From positions 248,001-312,000 of the forward strand of contig NZ_JAPKNI010000001.1 of NCBI RefSeq assembly GCF_026343955.1: a DNA stretch of 64,000 nucleotides. Direction: 5' to 3'. The stretch's first letter is position 1; each line of letters begins with the position of its first letter. Below are positions 42,407-52,300 of this stretch, one piece after another. A program made the position numbers and the translations under genes. A model generated the notes under the pieces. The model saw only the letters and a program-made list of their open reading frames with translations, was not told the DNA's origin and did not search any database. The stretch is from Kaistia defluvii (GTDB lineage: Bacteria; Pseudomonadota; Alphaproteobacteria; Rhizobiales; Kaistiaceae).

Positions 42407-42576
42407 GCCGCAGTGGAACCTGCGGTTAGCCTGGGTCCGGAGCCCCGGCCGCGCCGGCCCCATGCCGCCTTCGCGGGCGCGGCGGCCGTGCCTGTCAAGC
42501 GGACGCTCGCCTGTGAAAGCGCACCATGCGTTCCGGGTCGACAAGCCAGGCCAAAGGCGATACGGAAAGCCCTCGG

Positions 42577-42652
42577 GGGCCTATAGCTCAATGGTTAGAG
42601 CCGACCGCTCATAACGGTCTGGTTCCAGGTTCGAGTCCTGGTGGGCCCACCA
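42577..42652 (+). tRNA. tRNA with CAT anticodon, probably tRNA-Ile2
   Basis: A complete 76-base cloverleaf including an encoded CCA (42650-42652). The acceptor stem is GGGCCTA (42577-42583) paired with TGGGCCC (42642-42648); the anticodon stem GACCG/CGGTC at 42603-42607 and 42615-42619 surrounds the loop CTCATAA; the T arm is CCAGG-TTCGAGT-CCTGG. The anticodon is CAT. The short D loop and GACCG stem resemble the minor isoleucine tRNA modified by TilS rather than initiator or elongator Met, but elongator Met cannot be excluded. Confidence 0.92.
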
Positions 42653-42975
42653 ACTCCCCCCTCTTGTATCGACCGCGAGCGCCCGGAATGGCCACGACGA
42701 CTCGGGGCATCTAGGTGAATTTTCCAGGCAACTGGCGACCTGTGATGGTGAGGGTAGACTGCGCCGGCGACCGAACTCGTCGTTCACACCTTCGTCCGGA
42801 CGGGAAATCCGATTCGCGACGTGTCTCACCTCCCGACAGCAACGTCCGGCGTTCTGGCTGTTCCCCCCGGAAAAGTGGAGGTCCACCTGCGGGAGCCTCC
42901 GCGCGCCAAGGCGGGCTAGTCGACCGGCGGCGAACCGGATCCGCCGGCCGCGGAAGCGGATCGCCTTGAGGCTTC
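42653..42975. other. Gap between tRNA and autotransporter gene, no gene seen
   Basis: This 323-base stretch holds short open frames but none has a ribosome site or recognisable sequence. No copy of the tRNA 3' end, integrase or direct repeat that would mark an integrated element was found. It should contain the terminator of the autotransporter gene, but no strong hairpin with a T tract was seen. Confidence 0.4.
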
Positions 42976-45900
42976 CTACCAGCTCACGTTGAAGCCAATC
43001 CGCCCTCCGACCGCCTGTCCCTGCTCGCCATCCACCCGCGCAGCATAGTCACCGGATACGAAAAGGCTGACGGTCTCGGAAATGGCCATCGAGGCGTCGA
43101 GGTCGAGCTGGACCGATGTGCCGCCCAAACCTGAGTCGAAGGACGCGGCATTGGCGCCGGACAGGTCGGCGAATGTGACCTCCGTGCCATCTCCAAAAGC
43201 GTTCCACAGGCTGGCCCGTGCCGAGCCGGTGAACCGGGTGCCGTTTTCCAGCCGCCACGCACGACTGACGCGGGCGCCGATTCCACCGAGGACATCATTG
43301 GTTGCGTCGTACTGAACCGAGCCGAAGCGGTCCGCGCCATCATCGAAGGACAGGCGCTGATAAACGAGCTGGGCCTGCGGCTCGATCGCCCAGCCGCCGC
43401 CAAGGTCGAACCGGTAGCCCGACTCCACCGACGCGGTCAGGCCTAAACCGTCCGAACGCAGTTCCTCGCCAAGAACCGAGCTCGCACTCCCCTCCGTGAA
43501 GAAGGTGCCTTGAAGCACCGTATCGATATAGAGGCCGCTTGCCTGCGCATGCGTCCAGTACGCGCCGAGGGAGTAGGCGTCCATCGACACCTTGCCGGCC
43601 GCGCCGCCATAGACCGCATCGACATTGCCGCGCGCCTGACCGCTGCCGACATAGAAGCCGATGGTGTTCTGCACCGCCTCGCCAGGGTTCGAGGTCACAA
43701 GGTCGTAGCCGGCCTGGAAGCCGGCCAGATCGATATCGTAGCTGGGGCCATTGTTCAGGAAGCGGTTCAGCTGTGTCGCCGCGTTTCCGCCACTGGAACC
43801 CTGACTGCCCGTCTCGCCGAACAGACGAGCCCAGGCGGCATTGGCTTGCCCGCCCGGCTGGGTCGATCGTGCGGCCGCGCGTTCGGAATGGGTGCCGAGG
43901 ATCGCCATGCTGTAGTGCGAAGCGATGGCGGGAAGCGCGGTGTCGACGGCCACTTCCGGCCGCAGGTTCGGCAACGCGCCGGGTCCGGTGTCGCCTCCCT
44001 GGGTCGATCGTAGAAACCAGTCGTCGGTCCCTGACGCGCCGCCGCGATAGAGACCGTACTCATAGGCGCCGACAGCAACGCGACGCCCCAGCGCGAAGGC
44101 ATCGGGGTCGGTCTGGCCGCCATGGATGGCATGGATCAGGCCGATGCCATCGCCTGTGGTCAGGGCCACGGCACCGAGCGGTTGCACGATGATGCCGGTC
44201 TGACCCGTGGCCGTTCCGCCGTCGATGATGAGCTGGTCGCCTGCGCCTTCGCCGACGAAGGCGGCGTTCATGACGAGCGTGCCGTCGACGCCCTGATAGC
44301 TTCCAACCTCGAGGCTCTGGAAGACGGCCGGCGACGAACCCACAGGCTGCGCGAACGCGATTGTGCTGTGGCTGTTTACCAGTTCGTCGACCCTCGAGCT
44401 GACCGCCACTCCGGCAGCGGGAAGCACCCAGTGGCTGCCGTTCTGGAGCGAGAGGTCGATGACGGCATCGCTGGAGCGGGTCATGGCGCCGATCACCTGC
44501 GAATTGGAAGCGGTGAACTTGAGGTCGGTGCCGGCCGCCACCACCGCCATGCCGCTCGCCGCGGCAAGCGTGCTGTCGGTTACCGAGAGGGTGGCGGTGC
44601 GGCTCGTCGTTGCGCCCTCGACCGGGACGGCGGCCACCGCTGCCGCAGTCACGCCATGGGCGAGCACGCTCGTTCCGCTCAGATCGACCCGGGCGCCCTC
44701 GCCAAGCACAACCGCGTGGGCGTCAGCGCCATAGGTCGCCACCGAGCTGTCCTTGAGGTCGACCGTCGCGCCGTCACCCTGCGCGAGGATGCCGAAACTG
44801 CCCGCCGCGTGGGTCTCGACGTCAAGGCGCGTACCGAGCAGCTTCGCCGTTCCGTCCCCACCGGAAGCATGCAGGCCGCTGCCGGCGCCGTTCAGACGGA
44901 TCGAGCTGTCCGTGAGTTGCACCGTCCCGTTCGGCTCGACCCACGCGCCGCCGCCGCTGGTGAGATCGATGGCGACCCCATCGCCGTCGATCGTGGCCGG
45001 CGCGCCGCCGCCCGCATGCAGGCCGGCGAGCGCGCTACCGGTGATTTTCACACGGGTCAGCATGGCCTCGCCGTTGTCGCGCACGTCGACGCCGGTGCCG
45101 CTGACCTCATCGCCGTTCAACACGATGTTCACGTCGGCAAGGGCGAGCGATGCGGTGCCGGTCTCGGCACGCAGGAAAGCGCCATCACCGCCCAGCGAAG
45201 CGGCGATGTCGCCACCCAGGCCCAGTTCCACGCGTCCGCTGCTGCCGATGAAGATGGCAGGCACATAGTCCTGCAGCGGCGCGAGCGTGACGCGGCCGTC
45301 CGCGATGGCCGATCCGCCATTGGCCGCGTAGACGGCAGCGCGCGCGCCGAACGGCCCGCTGACCAGCCCGGTCCAGACCGTACCCGCTCCCACGACCTCG
45401 TTGGTGCTATCCGCGTCCACCTGGATCTGGCCGGCGGGGCCGTTCCAGTCGAGAATGGCCAGCAATTCCTTGAACAGATGCGCCGGTGCGTCGGGGTCGT
45501 CGGGATTGCTGGCGTTGAGGAGGATGGTGATCGTGCGGTCGTTCGCCCGGTCATACATGACCAGCACCTCGAAGCCGAGGCCGTTGCCCGTGTGGCCGAT
45601 GAAGCCGGAAATCTCGCCCATTCCGAAGCCGTAGCTGTCATATTCCGGGCTTAGCGGATCAGGCTCGCTGGAGCCGAATGACTTCAGCCGTTCGACGAAG
45701 TCGCGCTTGCTGAGCAGTTCGCCGCTTCCGACCGCCTTGCCCCAGCGCTCGGCATCGTCGATCAAGCCGACCAGCGCGCCCGAGGCGCCCGTGCCGCTGG
45801 CGTTGAACTCGGCCAGCGATATCGGGCCGTTGCCGTCGTCGAGGTCGATATACCCGACCGCGTTGGGTTCCGGCATCGTGCCGGCGCCCTGGTTGATCAC

Positions 45901-46596
45901 CGAGTTCAGCCCGAGCGGTTCCGTCAGGCGCTGGCGCACTTCTTCCGACCAGTCATTTCCCGTCGCCGCCGCGATGACCTCGCCGAGCAGCACGGTGTTG
46001 GTGTTGGAATATTCGTAAGAGGCGCCGGGCGCGAACTCGACCGGCTCGGCGAATGCGAAGGCGAGCAATTCAGCCGCCGTCCACGCCTTGCCCGGATCGT
46101 CGCCGAACTGCTCGCCGAAAGCGGCCGTCGCGGTATAGTTGACCAGGCCCGATCGCATCTCCGCGAGCTGGCGGATCGTGATCACGTCGCCATTGGGCAC
46201 GCCGTCCACATAATTTCCGACCGGATCGTCCAGTCCGATGCGCCCCTCTTCCGCCAGTTGCAGGATGACCGTGGTCACGAACGACTTGGTGACGCTGCGA
46301 AAGCCGAAATAGGTGTCCGCCGTGGGTGCCGCGCCGTTGGCGACATCCGCGACGCCGGAGTTCGACGTCCAGCGCACGTCGCCCTGCCGGATGGCGACCG
46401 AGGCGCCCGGGATGCGCTTGTCGATCAGGGCCTGATCGATGGCAGCCTGAAGCTCGGACGCGGTCGTCGAATTGTCCCACGGCATACTGGCGGGAAGGCC
46501 CTGGGCGAGCGCGATCGTGCCATGGGTGGAGAGCATCAGAAAGGCGGCAAGCAGCGAGAGCCGCCGCGTCTTCCTCCAAGCAAGAATGTCGTTCAA
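42976..46596 (-). CDS. Autotransporter with an N-terminal beta-lactamase-fold serine hydrolase passenger
   Basis: A 1206-residue fusion. A signal peptide of about 31 residues is followed by a serine hydrolase of the class C beta-lactamase/DD-peptidase fold: S101-V-T-K104 (catalytic Ser and Lys), Y196-S-N198 and GHTGNG near 335 (the third, HTG/KTG-like element). Residues about 395-850 are repeats of the right-handed beta-helix kind, with Asn/Gly-rich turns such as DSSIRLNGAGSGLHASGG. The C-terminal 270 residues are an autotransporter beta-barrel, ending in an aromatic residue (FNVSW). The passenger is therefore displayed on or released from the outer membrane. This is an unusual combination, since most such hydrolases are plain periplasmic proteins. 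The gene is downstream of another serine hydrolase gene. Confidence 0.85.
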   Translation of the reverse strand: MNDILAWRKTRRLSLLAAFLMLSTHGTIALAQGLPASMPWDNSTTASELQAAIDQALIDKRIPGASVAIRQGDVRWTSNSGVADVANGAAPTADTYFGFRSVTKSFVTTVILQLAEEGRIGLDDPVGNYVDGVPNGDVITIRQLAEMRSGLVNYTATAAFGEQFGDDPGKAWTAAELLAFAFAEPVEFAPGASYEYSNTNTVLLGEVIAAATGNDWSEEVRQRLTEPLGLNSVINQGAGTMPEPNAVGYIDLDDGNGPISLAEFNASGTGASGALVGLIDDAERWGKAVGSGELLSKRDFVERLKSFGSSEPDPLSPEYDSYGFGMGEISGFIGHTGNGLGFEVLVMYDRANDRTITILLNASNPDDPDAPAHLFKELLAILDWNGPAGQIQVDADSTNEVVGAGTVWTGLVSGPFGARAAVYAANGGSAIADGRVTLAPLQDYVPAIFIGSSGRVELGLGGDIAASLGGDGAFLRAETGTASLALADVNIVLNGDEVSGTGVDVRDNGEAMLTRVKITGSALAGLHAGGGAPATIDGDGVAIDLTSGGGAWVEPNGTVQLTDSSIRLNGAGSGLHASGGDGTAKLLGTRLDVETHAAGSFGILAQGDGATVDLKDSSVATYGADAHAVVLGEGARVDLSGTSVLAHGVTAAAVAAVPVEGATTSRTATLSVTDSTLAAASGMAVVAAGTDLKFTASNSQVIGAMTRSSDAVIDLSLQNGSHWVLPAAGVAVSSRVDELVNSHSTIAFAQPVGSSPAVFQSLEVGSYQGVDGTLVMNAAFVGEGAGDQLIIDGGTATGQTGIIVQPLGAVALTTGDGIGLIHAIHGGQTDPDAFALGRRVAVGAYEYGLYRGGASGTDDWFLRSTQGGDTGPGALPNLRPEVAVDTALPAIASHYSMAILGTHSERAAARSTQPGGQANAAWARLFGETGSQGSSGGNAATQLNRFLNNGPSYDIDLAGFQAGYDLVTSNPGEAVQNTIGFYVGSGQARGNVDAVYGGAAGKVSMDAYSLGAYWTHAQASGLYIDTVLQGTFFTEGSASSVLGEELRSDGLGLTASVESGYRFDLGGGWAIEPQAQLVYQRLSFDDGADRFGSVQYDATNDVLGGIGARVSRAWRLENGTRFTGSARASLWNAFGDGTEVTFADLSGANAASFDSGLGGTSVQLDLDASMAISETVSLFVSGDYAARVDGEQGQAVGGRIGFNVSW

Positions 46597-46642
46597 CGCC
46601 CGTCCCCCATGACTTTGTCACCATTGGCCCACCCCGCGCGGG

Positions 46643-48202
46643 TCACTCCCGCGCGAACGTGCCCAGTCCGTTCTGGTTGAGATGTTCGATGGTCACGGCA
46701 CCGAAGCTCGCCGCGTCCTTATGGAAGGTGGCGAGGGAGATGGAGCCGTCGGTCTCGTTCTCGCTGGACGGTTCAAACGTGAAGGCGTCGCCGTCCCAAT
46801 GCTCCAACGTGTATTGCGTCGCAGCCGGACCGAGCCGTACCGCCAGCCCCTCTCCGCTCCGGACGATTTTGAGGGTGCCGTAATAGTCGCTGCGGTAGGT
46901 GCCGACATAATCGGCAAGCCTGGCGGCGGGCGCCGGGTTCCCTGGCCGTTCCTTCCCAGCGAGGCTGCCCGCTGGCCGGTTCACCGCCGTCAGCCTTGGG
47001 CCGTAGGCCGCCAGCCAGTCCCGCTCGATCTCGCCGAACTGCACGAGATCGGTGAATTCCGCGGCCAGCGCTTCGGGGGCTCCGAGGGGCCACGCATTGG
47101 TGAGCACGACGATGCCCACGCCTGCCGAGGGAAGCAGGGTGAAGGCGGTGGCCGCGCCACTAGAGAAGGCGCCGGAATGGGAGAGCTGGACCCGCCCTGC
47201 GGGGTTGATGCTCACATTGAAGCCGTAGCCATAGAAACCGGGCCGGGCAGAGACGGCCGGCGAAGGGCTGGAGATCATCTCGGCCGAGATCGTCGGCAGC
47301 AACGCCTGGGGGTCGATGACCAGCTTGCCCGCATAGGTGCCGCCCTGCAGCACCATCGCCATCCAGCGCGCGATGTCGTTCACCGAGGAACTGACGCCTC
47401 CTGCCGGCGCCTGCGCGTCGGGCTTGCGCTGATATTTGGGCGCGAAGCTGCCATTCACCGGGACATGGTTCACGGCCTTGTTGGCGCGCTTGTCGTAATC
47501 GACGAAGCGCGAACTGGTTGAGGTCATGCCCAGCGGCTTGTAGAGCGCATCTTCGGAAAGCGTCGCCCAGTCCTTCCCGGCCGCCACCGCCACGGCTTCC
47601 GCACCAGCGGTAAAGCCGAAATTCGTGTAGGCGTAGGAGATCCGGAACGGGTCCAGCGGCAGTAGACGCAGCCGCTCCAGCACCGCGCGCCGGTCAAAGC
47701 CGATATCCTCCAGATTGTCGCCGCCATGGTCCGGCAGGCCGGAACGATGCGACATCAGATCGGCGATGGTGACGTGCTCGCTGACCCATGGGTCCTGCAG
47801 GCGGAACCACGGCAGATGTCGGATGACCGGCGTCTCCCAGCTCACCGTTCCGGCACCCACCTCGTGGGCGACGACCGTGCCGGCGATCGCCTTCGACATC
47901 GAGGCCAGCTGGAACACCGTGTCGGCGTCGACCTTGTCTGGCGCGCCCACCCTGCGGATCCCGAAACCCTTGGCGTAGACGGTCTTGCCGTCCTTCACCA
48001 CCGCAACCGCCATGCCCGGAATGCCGGTCTCCTTCATCAACGCGTCGGCAAGGCCGTCGAGTCGCGCGACTGCCGCGTCGACCTGGCGGTCGGAAATCGG
48101 AACGGCGGAGATGAAAGGCGGGGGCGGAAGATTCTCGGCTCTTGCGGGCAAGGCGACGAAGATCAGGGCAGATCCGACCGCCACGAAGCTAGGTGTCTTC
48201 AT
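46643..48202 (-). CDS. Secreted serine hydrolase of the beta-lactamase/penicillin-binding-protein fold
   Basis: A 519-residue exported protein. The signal peptide ends at about residue 22 (ARA-E). The catalytic set is S101-M-S-K104, Y192-T-N194 and a HSG element (LSHSGAFSSG) near 350. The C-terminal 100 residues form a separate lipocalin-like domain (LADYVGTYRSDYYGTLKIVRSGEGLAVRLG), as in many esterase/peptidase members. It could be an esterase, peptidase or D-aminoacylase; true beta-lactamase activity is not implied. The start at 48202 has GGGG eight bases upstream; an ATG at 48220 is possible. It is 46 bases upstream of the autotransporter gene and likely in one operon. Confidence 0.83.
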   Translation of the reverse strand: MKTPSFVAVGSALIFVALPARAENLPPPPFISAVPISDRQVDAAVARLDGLADALMKETGIPGMAVAVVKDGKTVYAKGFGIRRVGAPDKVDADTVFQLASMSKAIAGTVVAHEVGAGTVSWETPVIRHLPWFRLQDPWVSEHVTIADLMSHRSGLPDHGGDNLEDIGFDRRAVLERLRLLPLDPFRISYAYTNFGFTAGAEAVAVAAGKDWATLSEDALYKPLGMTSTSSRFVDYDKRANKAVNHVPVNGSFAPKYQRKPDAQAPAGGVSSSVNDIARWMAMVLQGGTYAGKLVIDPQALLPTISAEMISSPSPAVSARPGFYGYGFNVSINPAGRVQLSHSGAFSSGAATAFTLLPSAGVGIVVLTNAWPLGAPEALAAEFTDLVQFGEIERDWLAAYGPRLTAVNRPAGSLAGKERPGNPAPAARLADYVGTYRSDYYGTLKIVRSGEGLAVRLGPAATQYTLEHWDGDAFTFEPSSENETDGSISLATFHKDAASFGAVTIEHLNQNGLGTFARE

Positions 48203-48561
48203 CCAGGCATCCCCTGCCATGATCCAGAAAATAAGGGACTCGTCGCGCGCCAGCGCGACGGGCGTGATCGACGCCCGGTTTCGCGACGCGCGCATCGACA
48301 GCGATCGGGGCCGGCCAGGCCCGTGGCTATAGCAGGCGATTGTTTGCCTGATATTTGAAAGCGGGCCTCATTCGGAGGGCACCCCGGTCATGCGCGACAC
48401 CGGCTGCCGCGGACATAGCCCGACGCCACTTCCCAAACGGAAAGTCCTGACCGGAAGGCTGTGCACCCTTACGGCATGGACCGGACGCCAGGCTTCGTCC
48501 ATTCTGGCGCCCTGTGTTCGGGATGCATGCCGCGTCGACCGGCAGACTGGGGCGAGTTCGG
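48203..48561. other. Divergent gap between serine hydrolase and winged-helix regulator
   Basis: This 359-base gap has no gene. It should hold the divergent promoters of the two hydrolase genes and of the regulator. A TATAG-type element lies at 48327-48335 on either strand, and the 48340-48360 part is AT-rich, but no convincing -35 or operator repeat was found. Its left third is GC-rich with several short CGCG inverted repeats. Confidence 0.4.
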
Positions 48562-50178
48562 ATGAAGGGTGAGATGCCGCAACTCGGCGGATCGGCGATG
48601 GGCGATGTCGTCCTGGATGACACATGCCTGTTCGCGCATCGCAACGGGGAGCAGATCCGGTTCACGCGCAGCGAGCGCGCCCTCCTTCTCGTGCTTTCCC
48701 GGAATCCGCACCGCCTGATGCAGCGCAGTCAGTTGCTCGACGCGATCGCGCCGACCCAGGCCGATGCCTCCGACCGCAATGTCGACTTTCTCGTCAACCG
48801 CCTGCGAACCAAGCTCGGCGACAACGCAAGGTCCCCCCGATTCATCGCCACGCAATATGGCGAAGGCTATGTCTGGATCGCGACGAAGCTTCCGCCCGTC
48901 GTCCCCCGGCCCGATCCGGCGCCGATCAGCCGACTTCTCGCGATAGCCCCTGTCGTCCCATCGCATGACAAGCGCCTGGCTGACCGTGCGTCCGCCGTTA
49001 CCACCCATATGCGGGCCATGATCGCAGGCCGGCTCGGCGCCGGCGAGACCGTGACCCTCCTGGGGCGTGATGACGAGGCGGCAACGCAGGCGTCGCGCTA
49101 TGTCCTCAAGGTCAGCTTCCAGGACAACGGCGAGCGGCTGGATTGCACCGCCACCCTGCGCGAAGGGCCGTCACGCCGCATCATCCGGGCTTTCCGGCTC
49201 GAATTCGGCAGCGCCGCCATGGCCGGGCTCGTTCCGGAGGTGGAGCGCGCCTCGATCGGTATCATCGAGGCATTGCAGCGCAATCTGGCCGAGGCCTCGG
49301 AGGGGCTTGGCACCCCCGAGGACCAGCCGTACGAAATCCGCCAGCGCAAGGCATCGAGCCTCCTGTCCGCCTCCAACCCGAACTGGCTGGAAAAGGGGCT
49401 GCAACTGCGTGATGCGCGGACGCAGGATCCGGGCAGTGCGGATATCGCCCTGCAATGGTGCCTGCATCTGTTTGCACGCCTCGTCCTCACCAATCCCTTC
49501 ATCGGCATCGGCCGCGACGAGCGCGACGAGATCGAGAGCGAGATCGAGGCGACCGTGCTGGATTGCCTGCCGCTGATCCACACCAACCCGCTGCTGATGC
49601 TGACCGCCGCCAAGCTGCTCTATTTCATCGATCGCGGCCATCTCGAGCTGGCGGAGGATCTTGCGGGCAGGGCTTTTGACCGTATGGCGGACTCGGCCGC
49701 CGCCCTGCCGGTGCTCGGGCAGTTGCGGCAGGCGCGCGGCGACTTCGCCGCTGCGGTGGCCTTCTTCGATCGCGGCCTCGATATGGCCGATCCCGATTCC
49801 GCGTTCGAACTGCACATGCGTGTCCTGAAAAACATCGCGCTGCTGGCGGCCGGCGACCGCGAGGCGCTGCAGGTGCCGGCGGAGTTCTCCTACGAAAGCC
49901 CGCATTCGCCGCCGGATCTCAGCGTGATGGTCACCGCGCTGATCACGCCGGCCGGCCAACAACTGCCGAAATCCGTCACCGATGTCCTGATCGCAGCCGG
50001 CCACGAAGGCGTGCGCAATGCGATCGAATACACCTACATGACGTCGGTGCGCCAGCTCACCTCGCTGCAGGCGCGCGCCAACATCATGCAGGGGCTCATC
50101 GGCCATTTGACCAAGCTGCATGGCAAGACTGTGGTCACGCCTTTCGTGCGTATCGGAACCGGTCTGCTCGCGGCCTAG
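48562..50178 (+). CDS. Winged-helix (OmpR/CadC-like) regulator with a large sensor domain
   Basis: A protein of about 538 residues. The N-terminal 90 residues form an OmpR/PhoB-type winged helix, with RFTRSERALLLVLSRNPHRLMQRSQLLDAI, DRNVDFLVNRLRTKLGDNARSPRFIATQYGEGYVW as the recognition helix and wing. The rest is helical, includes TPR-like segments (AADSAAALPVLGQLRQARGDFAAAVAFFDRGLDMA) and has no clear membrane segment, so it differs from membrane-bound CadC. Regulators of this shape often control toxins or secreted enzymes. It is divergent from the two serine hydrolase genes and probably controls them. Start is uncertain between ATG at 48562 and ATG at 48574. Confidence 0.72.
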   Translation: MKGEMPQLGGSAMGDVVLDDTCLFAHRNGEQIRFTRSERALLLVLSRNPHRLMQRSQLLDAIAPTQADASDRNVDFLVNRLRTKLGDNARSPRFIATQYGEGYVWIATKLPPVVPRPDPAPISRLLAIAPVVPSHDKRLADRASAVTTHMRAMIAGRLGAGETVTLLGRDDEAATQASRYVLKVSFQDNGERLDCTATLREGPSRRIIRAFRLEFGSAAMAGLVPEVERASIGIIEALQRNLAEASEGLGTPEDQPYEIRQRKASSLLSASNPNWLEKGLQLRDARTQDPGSADIALQWCLHLFARLVLTNPFIGIGRDERDEIESEIEATVLDCLPLIHTNPLLMLTAAKLLYFIDRGHLELAEDLAGRAFDRMADSAAALPVLGQLRQARGDFAAAVAFFDRGLDMADPDSAFELHMRVLKNIALLAAGDREALQVPAEFSYESPHSPPDLSVMVTALITPAGQQLPKSVTDVLIAAGHEGVRNAIEYTYMTSVRQLTSLQARANIMQGLIGHLTKLHGKTVVTPFVRIGTGLLAA

Positions 50179-50319
50179 GCACGCGCTTCGGCGCCCAATA
50201 CGCGACCGACGCCTACGAAAATTCTGCTCAGGCCAATTTCTCGCTGACGTTCTGATATCGACGTCACCGAGGACAGCGAGCCGAAGGACTGGTTCCCGCC
50301 GCGCGGGGCGACGGAGAAT

Positions 50320-51783
50320 TCATCGCCGGTCCCATGGCTGAGCTTCAGCCTGGCGGCTTTCGGCCCCGGCCCCGCGAGGCAGCCCAGCCTCCTGCGGGGG
50401 CGACCCGGCTCGTCGGCCCAGAAGCGCCAGGATGACTGCGAGCAGCGTCAGGCCCGCCGCGATCACGAATGTGGCCGTGAAGGCGTCGCCGATGGCCCGC
50501 GGAGAGGCGCTGGCAATGGCCTCCGTTCCAACCGCCGTTGCGAAAAGGGTTGCCATGACGGAGGCGCCGGTCATGAAACCGAGATTGCGGGAGAGGCCGA
50601 GCAATCCAGACACCACGCCGCGCTGTTCATCCCGGGCCGCGAGCATCACGAGGGTGTTGTTCGCGGCCAGGAACAGTTGGAAACCAGGCGTCAGGATGAC
50701 CAGCGCGGCGACATAGCCGGCTATGCCGAACCACCGGGGCAGCAAGGCCAGACAGATCAGGCCAACGGCCATCTCCGCCAGACCCGCCACAAGCACGCGT
50801 GGCGCCCCGAAACGGTCGGTGAGACGACCGGCTGGAAGTCCCGCCAGCGCGGCGGTCACGGGTCCCGCCGCCAGGACAAGACCGACCAGCGCCTCGTTCA
50901 GGCCGAGGCCGAATGCCAGGAAGAACGGTCCGACAACCAGGGTCGACATCATGCCGGTGGTGACCAGCAGGTTCATCATCAGGGAGGCGCGAATGGCCCG
51001 GTTGCGCAGGATCGCCACGGGCACCAGCGGGGATGCGGATCGGGCCTCGACGACAACGAAGAGCCCGAGGGCCAGAAGCGCGGTAGGAAGGGAGAGGCCC
51101 AGCCCCCAGCCGGCACCCGCTCTCCCCCCACCGGTCGCCAGGGCATAGGCCGTGAGGGCAACGGCGAGCAGAGCGGCGCCGGGCCAGTCCATCGAGCCGC
51201 CCCGGCCGCGTGTGCCGACCGGCGGCGTCGGCATGGCAAACAGGGCCAGGCACAGGACGGGAAGCGCGATTCCAGCCAGCAGAACGAAGCCCGCCCGCCA
51301 ACCGAAACCGGCCATCACCATGCCGCCAAGAGACGGGCCGAGCGCCGTTCCGATCGCAGACATCGCACCGAGCAGTCCCATTGCCGACCCGGTCCGTTCC
51401 TTGGCCACGGCCTCGCGCACGATCGAAAGCGGCAGTGCCATGAGGATCGCGCCGGCCATACCCTGGGCCGCCCGTGCCGCGATGAGTGCCGCCAGTGTCG
51501 GGGCGACCGCGCAGAGAACCGAAGCCACCGCGAACAGCAGCAGGCCGGCGATCAGCACCCTGCGACGTCCAAGCAGATCCCCGAGCCTTCCAGCCAGCAC
51601 GATCGCCACGGTGGCGGCAATCAGATAGGCGAGCACCACCCATTGGACGCTCGACACCGGTGCCGAATAGACCCGGCTGAGGGTTGGAAGCGCCACCGAG
51701 GCGATGCTGACGCCCAGCGATGCCAGCAGCATGGCCGCTGCGAGCACGGGCAGGGAAAGGTCCAATCGGGGCGTGGCGGTCAC
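50320..51783 (-). CDS. MFS drug-efflux-type transporter (14 segments)
   Basis: A 487-residue major facilitator of the DHA2 (EmrB/QacA-like) class. It has 14 predicted membrane segments, with SVALPTLSRVYSAPVSSVQWVVLAYLIAATVAIVLAGRLGDLLGRRRVL in the first third (the MFS loop motif GRLGDLLGRR) and a GxxLGPSLGG motif in segment 5 (GTALGPSLGGMVMAGFGWR), typical of exporters. A GTG start at 51783 is used. It is divergent from a MerR-type regulator; between them lies a near-perfect SoxR-box-like palindrome. Export of drugs or redox-active compounds is likely, but the substrate is unknown. Confidence 0.85.
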   Translation of the reverse strand: MTATPRLDLSLPVLAAAMLLASLGVSIASVALPTLSRVYSAPVSSVQWVVLAYLIAATVAIVLAGRLGDLLGRRRVLIAGLLLFAVASVLCAVAPTLAALIAARAAQGMAGAILMALPLSIVREAVAKERTGSAMGLLGAMSAIGTALGPSLGGMVMAGFGWRAGFVLLAGIALPVLCLALFAMPTPPVGTRGRGGSMDWPGAALLAVALTAYALATGGGRAGAGWGLGLSLPTALLALGLFVVVEARSASPLVPVAILRNRAIRASLMMNLLVTTGMMSTLVVGPFFLAFGLGLNEALVGLVLAAGPVTAALAGLPAGRLTDRFGAPRVLVAGLAEMAVGLICLALLPRWFGIAGYVAALVILTPGFQLFLAANNTLVMLAARDEQRGVVSGLLGLSRNLGFMTGASVMATLFATAVGTEAIASASPRAIGDAFTATFVIAAGLTLLAVILALLGRRAGSPPQEAGLPRGAGAESRQAEAQPWDRR

Positions 51784-51826
51784 GGCGGCTCTCTTGTCGT
51801 TGTTGCAAGTCGCCGCTACGCTGCCA

Positions 51827-51848
51827 CTTCAAGTCAACTTGAGGTCAA
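51827..51848 (-). promoter_or_regulatory. SoxR-box-like operator of the MFS gene
   Basis: CTTCAAGTCAACTTGAGG at 51827-51844 differs from the SoxR-box CCTCAAGTTAACTTGAGG at two positions. On the leftward strand it lies directly after TTGACC (51843-51848), which would be the -35 of the MFS gene, the layout used by MerR-family activators. Confidence 0.6.
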
Positions 51849-51850
51849 GC

Positions 51851-52300
51851 ATGAATCTTCTCGATATCGGCGTTCTTGCGGAGAGAAGCGGCGTGCCGGC
51901 CTCGACGCTGCGTTACTACGAGGAAATTGGACTGATTGAATCGGTCGGGCGGCGGGGGCTGCGCCGGCAGTTCGACGGCGCGGCGCTCACCCAGCTTGCC
52001 TTGATCGCGCTCGGCAAGACGGCGGGTTTTGCGCTGGAGGAGATCAGGGGGATGTTTGGCAAGGACGGTTCGCCCGATCTCCCGCGCGCGGCACTGCACC
52101 AGCGCGCCGACAAGCTCGATCTCCAGATCCGCGAGCTCACGACCCTCCGGAACGCACTCCGCCATGTCGCGGACTGCCGGGCGGCGTCCCATATGGAATG
52201 CCCGAAGTTCCGCAGGCTATTGCGTCTGGCGTCGCCCCCGCAGCGGGATCCCGCCCCTCGCCCACGACGTCTGAATCAGGGAAAAGCCGATCCTGCATGA
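51851..52300 (+). CDS. MerR-family transcriptional regulator
   Basis: A 149-residue MerR-type protein. The DNA-binding part reads LLDIGVLAERSGVPASTLRYYEEIGLIESVGRRGLRRQF, and a dimerisation helix follows. The C-terminal end has two cysteines (DCRAASHMECPKF) but lacks the four-cysteine [2Fe-2S] set of true SoxR, despite the SoxR-box-like operator. It therefore probably senses something other than superoxide. It is divergent from the MFS pump and likely activates it. Its gene starts only 67 bases from the MFS start. Confidence 0.82.
   Translation: MNLLDIGVLAERSGVPASTLRYYEEIGLIESVGRRGLRRQFDGAALTQLALIALGKTAGFALEEIRGMFGKDGSPDLPRAALHQRADKLDLQIRELTTLRNALRHVADCRAASHMECPKFRRLLRLASPPQRDPAPRPRRLNQGKADPA

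Follow-up and report, generated by a model that had tools for sequence, protein, structure and literature searches.

Within the window, a stretch of 64,000 nucleotides of Kaistia defluvii (contig NZ_JAPKNI010000001.1, positions 248,001 to 312,000), three neighbouring open reading frames encode an autotransporter with an N-terminal S12 hydrolase domain (AT), a second S12 hydrolase (HYD2) and a winged-helix regulator (REG); in the list of open reading frames the two hydrolase genes lie on the minus strand and REG on the plus strand, as an earlier note on this DNA had described them. Every part of the locus belongs to a known family, and it is the combination that is unusual. We hypothesize, with a probability of roughly 0.55, that this is a surface-enzyme locus, moving laterally and under local regulation, in which REG activates HYD2-AT and AT trims D-amino-acid peptides or amides at the surface. 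The earlier note had seen in the three genes a possible new system; a fixed three-gene unit is not supported, and the locus is instead a reshuffled surface-protein cassette, because nine of the 13 genomes with AT hold it alone and because the REG unit faces other surface proteins in relatives. Newly described here is a 31-bp (base pair) element between REG and HYD2. Coordinates are collected in Table 1.

The fusion of hydrolase, beta-helix and barrel in one 1206-residue protein, as first noticed, is real: in addition to the PF00144, AC_1 and PF03797 matches, TIGR01414 scores 185.9 bits across residues 758-1206. AT combines the sequence features expected of a classical autotransporter (signal, barrel, and stalk with autochaperone) with those of S12 hydrolases, and is classed on these profiles as a type Va (classical) autotransporter whose N-terminal S12 passenger would be exposed on the cell surface. 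The catalytic residues are S101-V-T-K104, Y196-S-N198 and H335-T-G337. Translation starts at a TTG codon; the N-terminus is signal-peptide-like by eye and hydropathy (a hydrophobic stretch at residues 13-31, then ALA-Q), there is no cysteine in the 1206 residues, and the last residue is aromatic, a tryptophan in all 13 family members. The Beta_helix profile matches residues 502-581 below its cut-off only. In the structure model only the beta-helix is good: mean predicted local distance difference test score (pLDDT) is mostly above 75 over the strand-rich residues 391-770, where antigen 43 is matched by Foldseek, against 60.4 for the whole model and 25-43 for the barrel blocks. Hydrolase and barrel are poorly modelled because the alignment of 13 rows is too shallow. 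As to whether the barrel is degenerate, its profiles are matched end to end, while confidence in the structure model is low there. A beta-lactamase identity was tried and rejected: the class C model NF033085 gives 59.5 bits for AT and 64.8 for HYD2 (cut-off 415). The AmpH equivalog model also matches far under its cut-off.

Twelve orthologues of the whole fusion in other Hyphomicrobiales, 57-81% identical to AT, rule out a frame or assembly artefact and bring the family to 13. Their hosts are three Ancylobacter species, Acuticoccus kalidii, Jiella pelagia, Chelatococcus reniformis and six other genomes of the order. SxxK, YSN and HTG are kept in all 13 sequences, with SITK replacing SVTK in four, and conservation is highest in the hydrolase (invariant at 165 of 337 positions; mean pairwise identity 0.76, versus 0.63-0.68 for helix, AC_1, linker and barrel). 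The ratio of non-synonymous to synonymous substitution rates (dN/dS) is 0.20-0.39 for three AT parts in four comparisons, which argues for purifying selection in all three and so for a functional protein. The domain combination is rare, as had been supposed: the whole fusion was found in eight of 397 genomes of the order sample (its own included) and in none of the 336 further genomes in the class sample; there the sole other match was a 403-residue open frame spanning the hydrolase alone. As no more than two candidates per genome, the best ones at E<=1e-60, were scored in these searches, some copies may have been missed. Among 14 Kaistia genomes, only that of the window has the whole gene, and K. 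terrae has two pieces (residues 701-1206), each broken by a contig end at residue 701.

This patchy distribution can be set beside a comparison with CarA, the one protein used as a yardstick. AT is more alike than CarA in eight of 12 genomes (the three Ancylobacter, at 79-81% versus 74-75% identity, and G407, G408, G263, G181 and G124), about equal in G360 and less alike in G154, G238 and G409, which gives modest support to lateral transfer of AT. Plasmid-borne spread was considered and rejected, as none of 45 matching plasmid records covers 80% of AT in one place.

The first 402 residues of AT were searched against the sequences of solved structures, and the best matches are alkaline D-peptidase (4y7p, E 8e-43), a Streptomyces S12 peptidase (3wwx), 9s7k (a chain labelled D-alanyl-D-alanine carboxypeptidase) and the R61 DD-peptidase (entries 1sde and 1cef; 5e-36), followed by a D-amino acid amidase (2e-23). 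Foldseek places much the same enzymes at the top for the AT model: dHy1 (a D-stereospecific hydrolase), 4y7p, R61, the D-stereospecific amidohydrolase 3wwx and the D-amino acid amidase. By sequence, then, the nearest solved relatives of AT are D-stereospecific peptidases and amidases and the R61 DD-peptidase, and AT may prefer D-residues.

HYD2 is co-oriented with AT and divergent from REG. It has no barrel and lies 46 bases from AT (46597-46642), as the earlier note had it, and carries a full catalytic set of its own (SMSK/YTN/HSG). In the longest reading frame (46643-48295) its profile matches are PF00144 at residues 80-417 and DUF3471 at 450-525; the probable start, ATG 48202, reads MKTPSFVAVGSALIFVALPARA, which is signal-peptide-like, and the orthologues of A. 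dichloromethanicus and A. tetraedralis are called from the matching start. Since the two genes are in line and 46 bases apart, they are probably co-transcribed; they are adjacent and co-oriented in all four loci that hold both, in either gene order. Calling HYD2 a paralogue was too strong: its identity to the AT hydrolase domain is 24% over 253 residues and its best solved relatives are different ones (IS11, a DUF3471 domain and a family VIII carboxylesterase), so that the two hydrolases are distant relatives; the same 24% identity rules out a recent duplication. To place HYD2 free outside the cell also went too far, as it has a signal peptide only and may end in the periplasm. The genome as a whole has six PF00144 places above cut-off and a seventh below it. 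S12 domains also occur in tandem elsewhere: a single open frame of 1926 residues at L194 (G005:C285:1-12936), with further cases at L031 and L034, joins them to an alpha/beta-hydrolase domain, and the scanned pieces of L031 and L034 hold two and three such stretches.

The regulator was rightly described as a divergent winged-helix protein (Trans_reg_C at residues 45-120, 65.6 bits versus a cut-off of 26.2) lacking the membrane sensor, and no membrane segment is seen in it (best 19-residue mean hydropathy 1.33); the tetratricopeptide repeat (TPR)-like segments also claimed for it match only under the cut-off (TPR_12, E 0.057). An alternative start is possible at ATG 48562. The model of REG (mean pLDDT 73.2, predicted template modelling score 0.51) shows the winged helix, a middle part of beta-alpha type and helices at the C-terminus, and its best whole-chain fold match is the periplasmic domain of CadC, a weak one (Foldseek E 6e-5, template modelling scores (TM) 0.22/0.34, root-mean-square deviation 19.7); the C-terminal part of REG matches that domain weakly. 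CadC likewise has a winged helix, but it differs in its single membrane-spanning segment leading to a periplasmic sensor. REG presumably also resembles HilA-type regulators, with their winged helix and TolB-like or helical-repeat C-terminus.

Upstream of REG lies the 31-bp element, TATAGCAGGCGATTGTTTGCCTGATATTTGA (48328-48358), which contains a dyad, CAGGC-N8-GCCTG, and, read towards HYD2, a direct repeat CAAAT/CAAAC with a spacing of 11 bp. It is present with no or one mismatch at all nine loci with a close REG (the window, G015, G022, G025, K. terrae twice and three Ancylobacter), and 28 of its 31 columns are identical across all nine, versus 11 of 128 and 20 of 155 in the flanks; a second conserved block lies near the start of REG. 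Shuffled elements gave no match at <=8 mismatches (five shuffles of 60 loci). Whole-genome scans at <=3 mismatches, whose reversed-pattern controls gave none, found the element in five of 14 Kaistia and three of 15 other genomes (8/29), the same eight in which a close REG orthologue was found; two of the 21 element-negative genomes, G020 and G021, were not searched for REG. More distant homologues of REG (35-40%; G019, G331, G362 and G367) come without the element. Dedicated regulation through the REG-element pair is strongly suggested by this co-occurrence, in line with the dedicated regulator first proposed: at <=3 mismatches the window's own genome has one element only, and this candidate site precedes HYD2 and not some unrelated gene. 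A broad REG regulon was rejected on the same single site, weaker sites not having been sought genome-wide. Extra copies precede a second autotransporter in K. terrae (L177:4374, two mismatches) and A. tetraedralis (L054:5295, four mismatches). The element is oriented identically towards the facing gene at all 11 sites, nine of them tied to the divergent position of REG and the two extra copies independent of it.

Table 1. Features of the locus and of the adjoining variable block, in window positions.
Feature	Position	Strand	Remarks
AT	42976..46596	-	1206 aa; signal peptide (predicted), S12 hydrolase, beta-helix, AC_1 autochaperone, barrel
AT, S12 domain (PF00144)	45484..46449	-	residues 50-371; 187.1 bits
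AT, AC_1 autochaperone (PF18883)	44050..44397	-	residues 734-849; 76.2 bits
AT, beta-domain (PF03797)	43051..43836	-	residues 921-1182; 125.5 bits, profile 1-254 of 255
HYD2 (second S12 hydrolase + DUF3471)	46643..48202	-	probable start ATG 48202; longest ORF (open reading frame) begins 48295
31-bp conserved element	48328..48358	+	candidate binding site or promoter element of REG; between REG and HYD2
REG	48514..50178	+	554 aa; winged helix and CadC-like C-terminal part without membrane segment
Scrap, C-terminal end of large autotransporter (after REG in K. terrae)	50195..50256	+	88.7% DNA identity to L177:8779-8840
Scrap, 3' region of K. terrae divergent S12/DUF3471 hydrolase	50266..50371	-	91.5% DNA identity to L177:10495-10599
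tRNA-Met	42577..42652	+	edge of variable block

The genes around REG and AT change from genome to genome. When the co-occurrence of all three genes was checked, HYD2 and REG were found near AT in only four of the 13 AT genomes; at the other nine, neither REG nor HYD2 is present in the flanking DNA to a distance of at least about 6 kb each way, HYD2-query matches fall inside AT's own hydrolase domain, and REG was not found anywhere in these genomes at E<=1e-20. Conversely, REG occurs without AT in G015, G022 and G025, there the gene facing REG encodes a large autotransporter, behind which come an amino-acid permease and a homologue of HYD2 with 56-65% identity (the G025 cluster is split over two contigs). 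K. terrae has two such REG clusters, one with the permease, and HYD2 homologues of 47-48%. The permease lies between autotransporter and hydrolase in L125, L126, L128 and L177, and of four autotransporters of REG loci that were scanned, three proved to carry PATR repeats (L126, L049 and L054; not L125). A. tetraedralis shares the window's order REG / HYD2 / AT and has, in addition, a large autotransporter following REG. The order in A. dichloromethanicus and A. rudongensis is REG / AraC / autotransporter / AT / HYD2. An AraC gene is also found directly before the lone AT of G238, 42% identical to the Ancylobacter AraC (L082:6207-7196 versus L049:785-1819); the AraC gene is a possible alternative regulator of AT. 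Two further observations belong here: in A. tetraedralis a tyrosine integrase gene follows directly after AT (L054:14132-15421), which fits mobility, and in K. terrae (L177, L178, L179 and L084), which has two REG clusters besides its two pieces of AT, each cluster stops inside a large autotransporter gene.

Traces of such remodelling are visible in the window, which matches the K. terrae cluster in pieces: 48327-50189 (REG and its upstream), 50195-50256 and 50266-50371. The second piece translates as ...TDAYENSAQANFSLTF-stop, and the counterpart of the third lies within the hydrolase match L177:10413-11912. Because of these piecewise matches after REG, a K. terrae-like cluster appears to have lost its autotransporter and permease here, leaving scraps. 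On a larger scale, the relative G017, whose flanking DNA is 94% identical, is without everything between 42663 and 52521: its layout runs from window 42411 through an inverted tRNA-Met segment (window 42439-42663) to window 52521, so that about 9.9 kb between the tRNA and 52521 is present in the window and absent from G017. The G015 tRNA-Met has the orientation of the window, and with it a gain by the window and a loss by G017 are not separable from the G017 comparison alone. Borders of an island, by integrase or repeat, were considered for the window and rejected: a short-repeat comparison of the two block edges gave nothing longer than 15 bases. The variable block also contains a divergent pair of major facilitator superfamily (MFS) and MerR genes (50320-52300), for which K. 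terrae has a stretch of 85% identity at another place (G026:C33).

In the mechanism that we propose, the S12 domain of AT, which by sequence sits on the beta-helix, would be exported and anchored with it by the protein's own barrel. REG would bind the 31-bp element and activate the facing gene, whether or not its helical C-terminal part holds an effector, its output in the window being HYD2-AT. AT would then trim peptides or amides that contain D-amino acids, for instance peptidoglycan stem fragments, at the cell surface, and HYD2 would act on the products of AT or on related esters and amides in the periplasm; in the Kaistia relatives, uptake of the product would fall to the adjacent amino-acid permease. 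Harvest of D-amino-acid peptides or wall fragments at the surface seems the most likely role: the solved enzymes nearest to AT act on D-residues, a permease stands beside REG in four related loci, and there is a precedent in AaaA of Pseudomonas aeruginosa, a surface arginine aminopeptidase autotransporter which, in the available text of its description, enables growth on peptide as a carbon and nitrogen source (PMC3426542).

The sequence gives the architecture; from it we infer substrate and location. Several points weigh against the proposal. The hydrolase and barrel of the AT model are poor, so that the hydrolase fold match leans on sequence, and the CadC match of REG is weak. The nine genomes with AT and neither partner also lack the element in whole-genome scans of all nine, the window has no permease, and it is the AraC gene, not AT or HYD2, that the element faces in A. 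dichloromethanicus and A. rudongensis. The substrates of AT and HYD2, the binding of the element by REG (read from their co-occurrence) and the localisation of AT are all putative. More tentatively, the whole may be a portable cassette: a soluble regulator of CadC-like type, together with a 31-bp switch of its own, would move between Kaistia and Ancylobacter with exchangeable cargo (large autotransporters, an AraC relay, the S12 pair), the window's version displaying a D-stereospecific peptidase.

Among the rival explanations, the most probable, though still unlikely, is that AT acts as a surface DD-carboxypeptidase or endopeptidase-like enzyme on the peptidoglycan of neighbours or on released wall polymer, serving competition or aggregation and not nutrition. 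R61 is among its best sequence and fold matches and, in the alignment, carries the same SVTK/YSN/HTG set, and the beta-helix resembles that of antigen 43; however, D-peptidases and D-amidases score equal to or above R61, and the permease beside REG in four Kaistia loci points to uptake. We regard it as somewhat less probable still that AT and HYD2 are esterases or detoxifying enzymes that cleave lactams or lactones, the likeness to D-peptidases being merely ancestral. S12 families are catalytically promiscuous, and the solved relatives of HYD2 include a family VIII carboxylesterase and IS11, but AT has HTG, as does R61, where class C beta-lactamases have KTG, and the class C and AmpH models fall far short, as given above. 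That the three genes are neighbours by accident in a shuffling island, REG serving other genes and AT working alone, as the lone AT genes and the REG clusters without AT might suggest, is the least probable, since the HYD2-AT adjacency survives a swap of order and the single element of the genome precedes HYD2.

Compared with known systems, AT shares with AaaA the likeness of a surface-tethered exopeptidase-type autotransporter; AaaA differs in enzyme class and in its Type 3 architecture without beta-helix (PMC9289746). Closer in plan are the Type 2 enzyme autotransporters (chymotrypsin-like Cluster A, subtilisin-like group 15 and MapA), which like AT have an N-terminal catalytic domain on a beta-helix and a C-terminal barrel, but in which the catalytic part is a chymotrypsin-like or subtilisin-like protease or an acid phosphatase (PMC9289746). 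The closest solved relatives of the AT domain (1cef, 4y7p, 3wwx and the D-amino acid amidase 2dns), unlike AT, are chains without autotransporter parts. In its available text the same 2022 review gives proteases, esterases, a sialidase, an aminopeptidase and a phosphatase as the characterised enzyme autotransporters, and names no S12 passenger, 'lactamase' appearing there twice and only for engineered display (PMC9289746). A 2008 survey of 254 S12 proteins from 91 genomes lists, in the portion available, five with extra domains and none with an autotransporter domain (PMC2605481). A literature search, in the partial texts it returned, found no S12-autotransporter fusion. A conserved family of S12 autotransporters would therefore widen surface display by one enzyme class and offer a plausible route for the extracellular use of D-amino-acid peptides. 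REG and its element provide a directly testable example of a switch whose own site stays the same as the surface genes behind it change.

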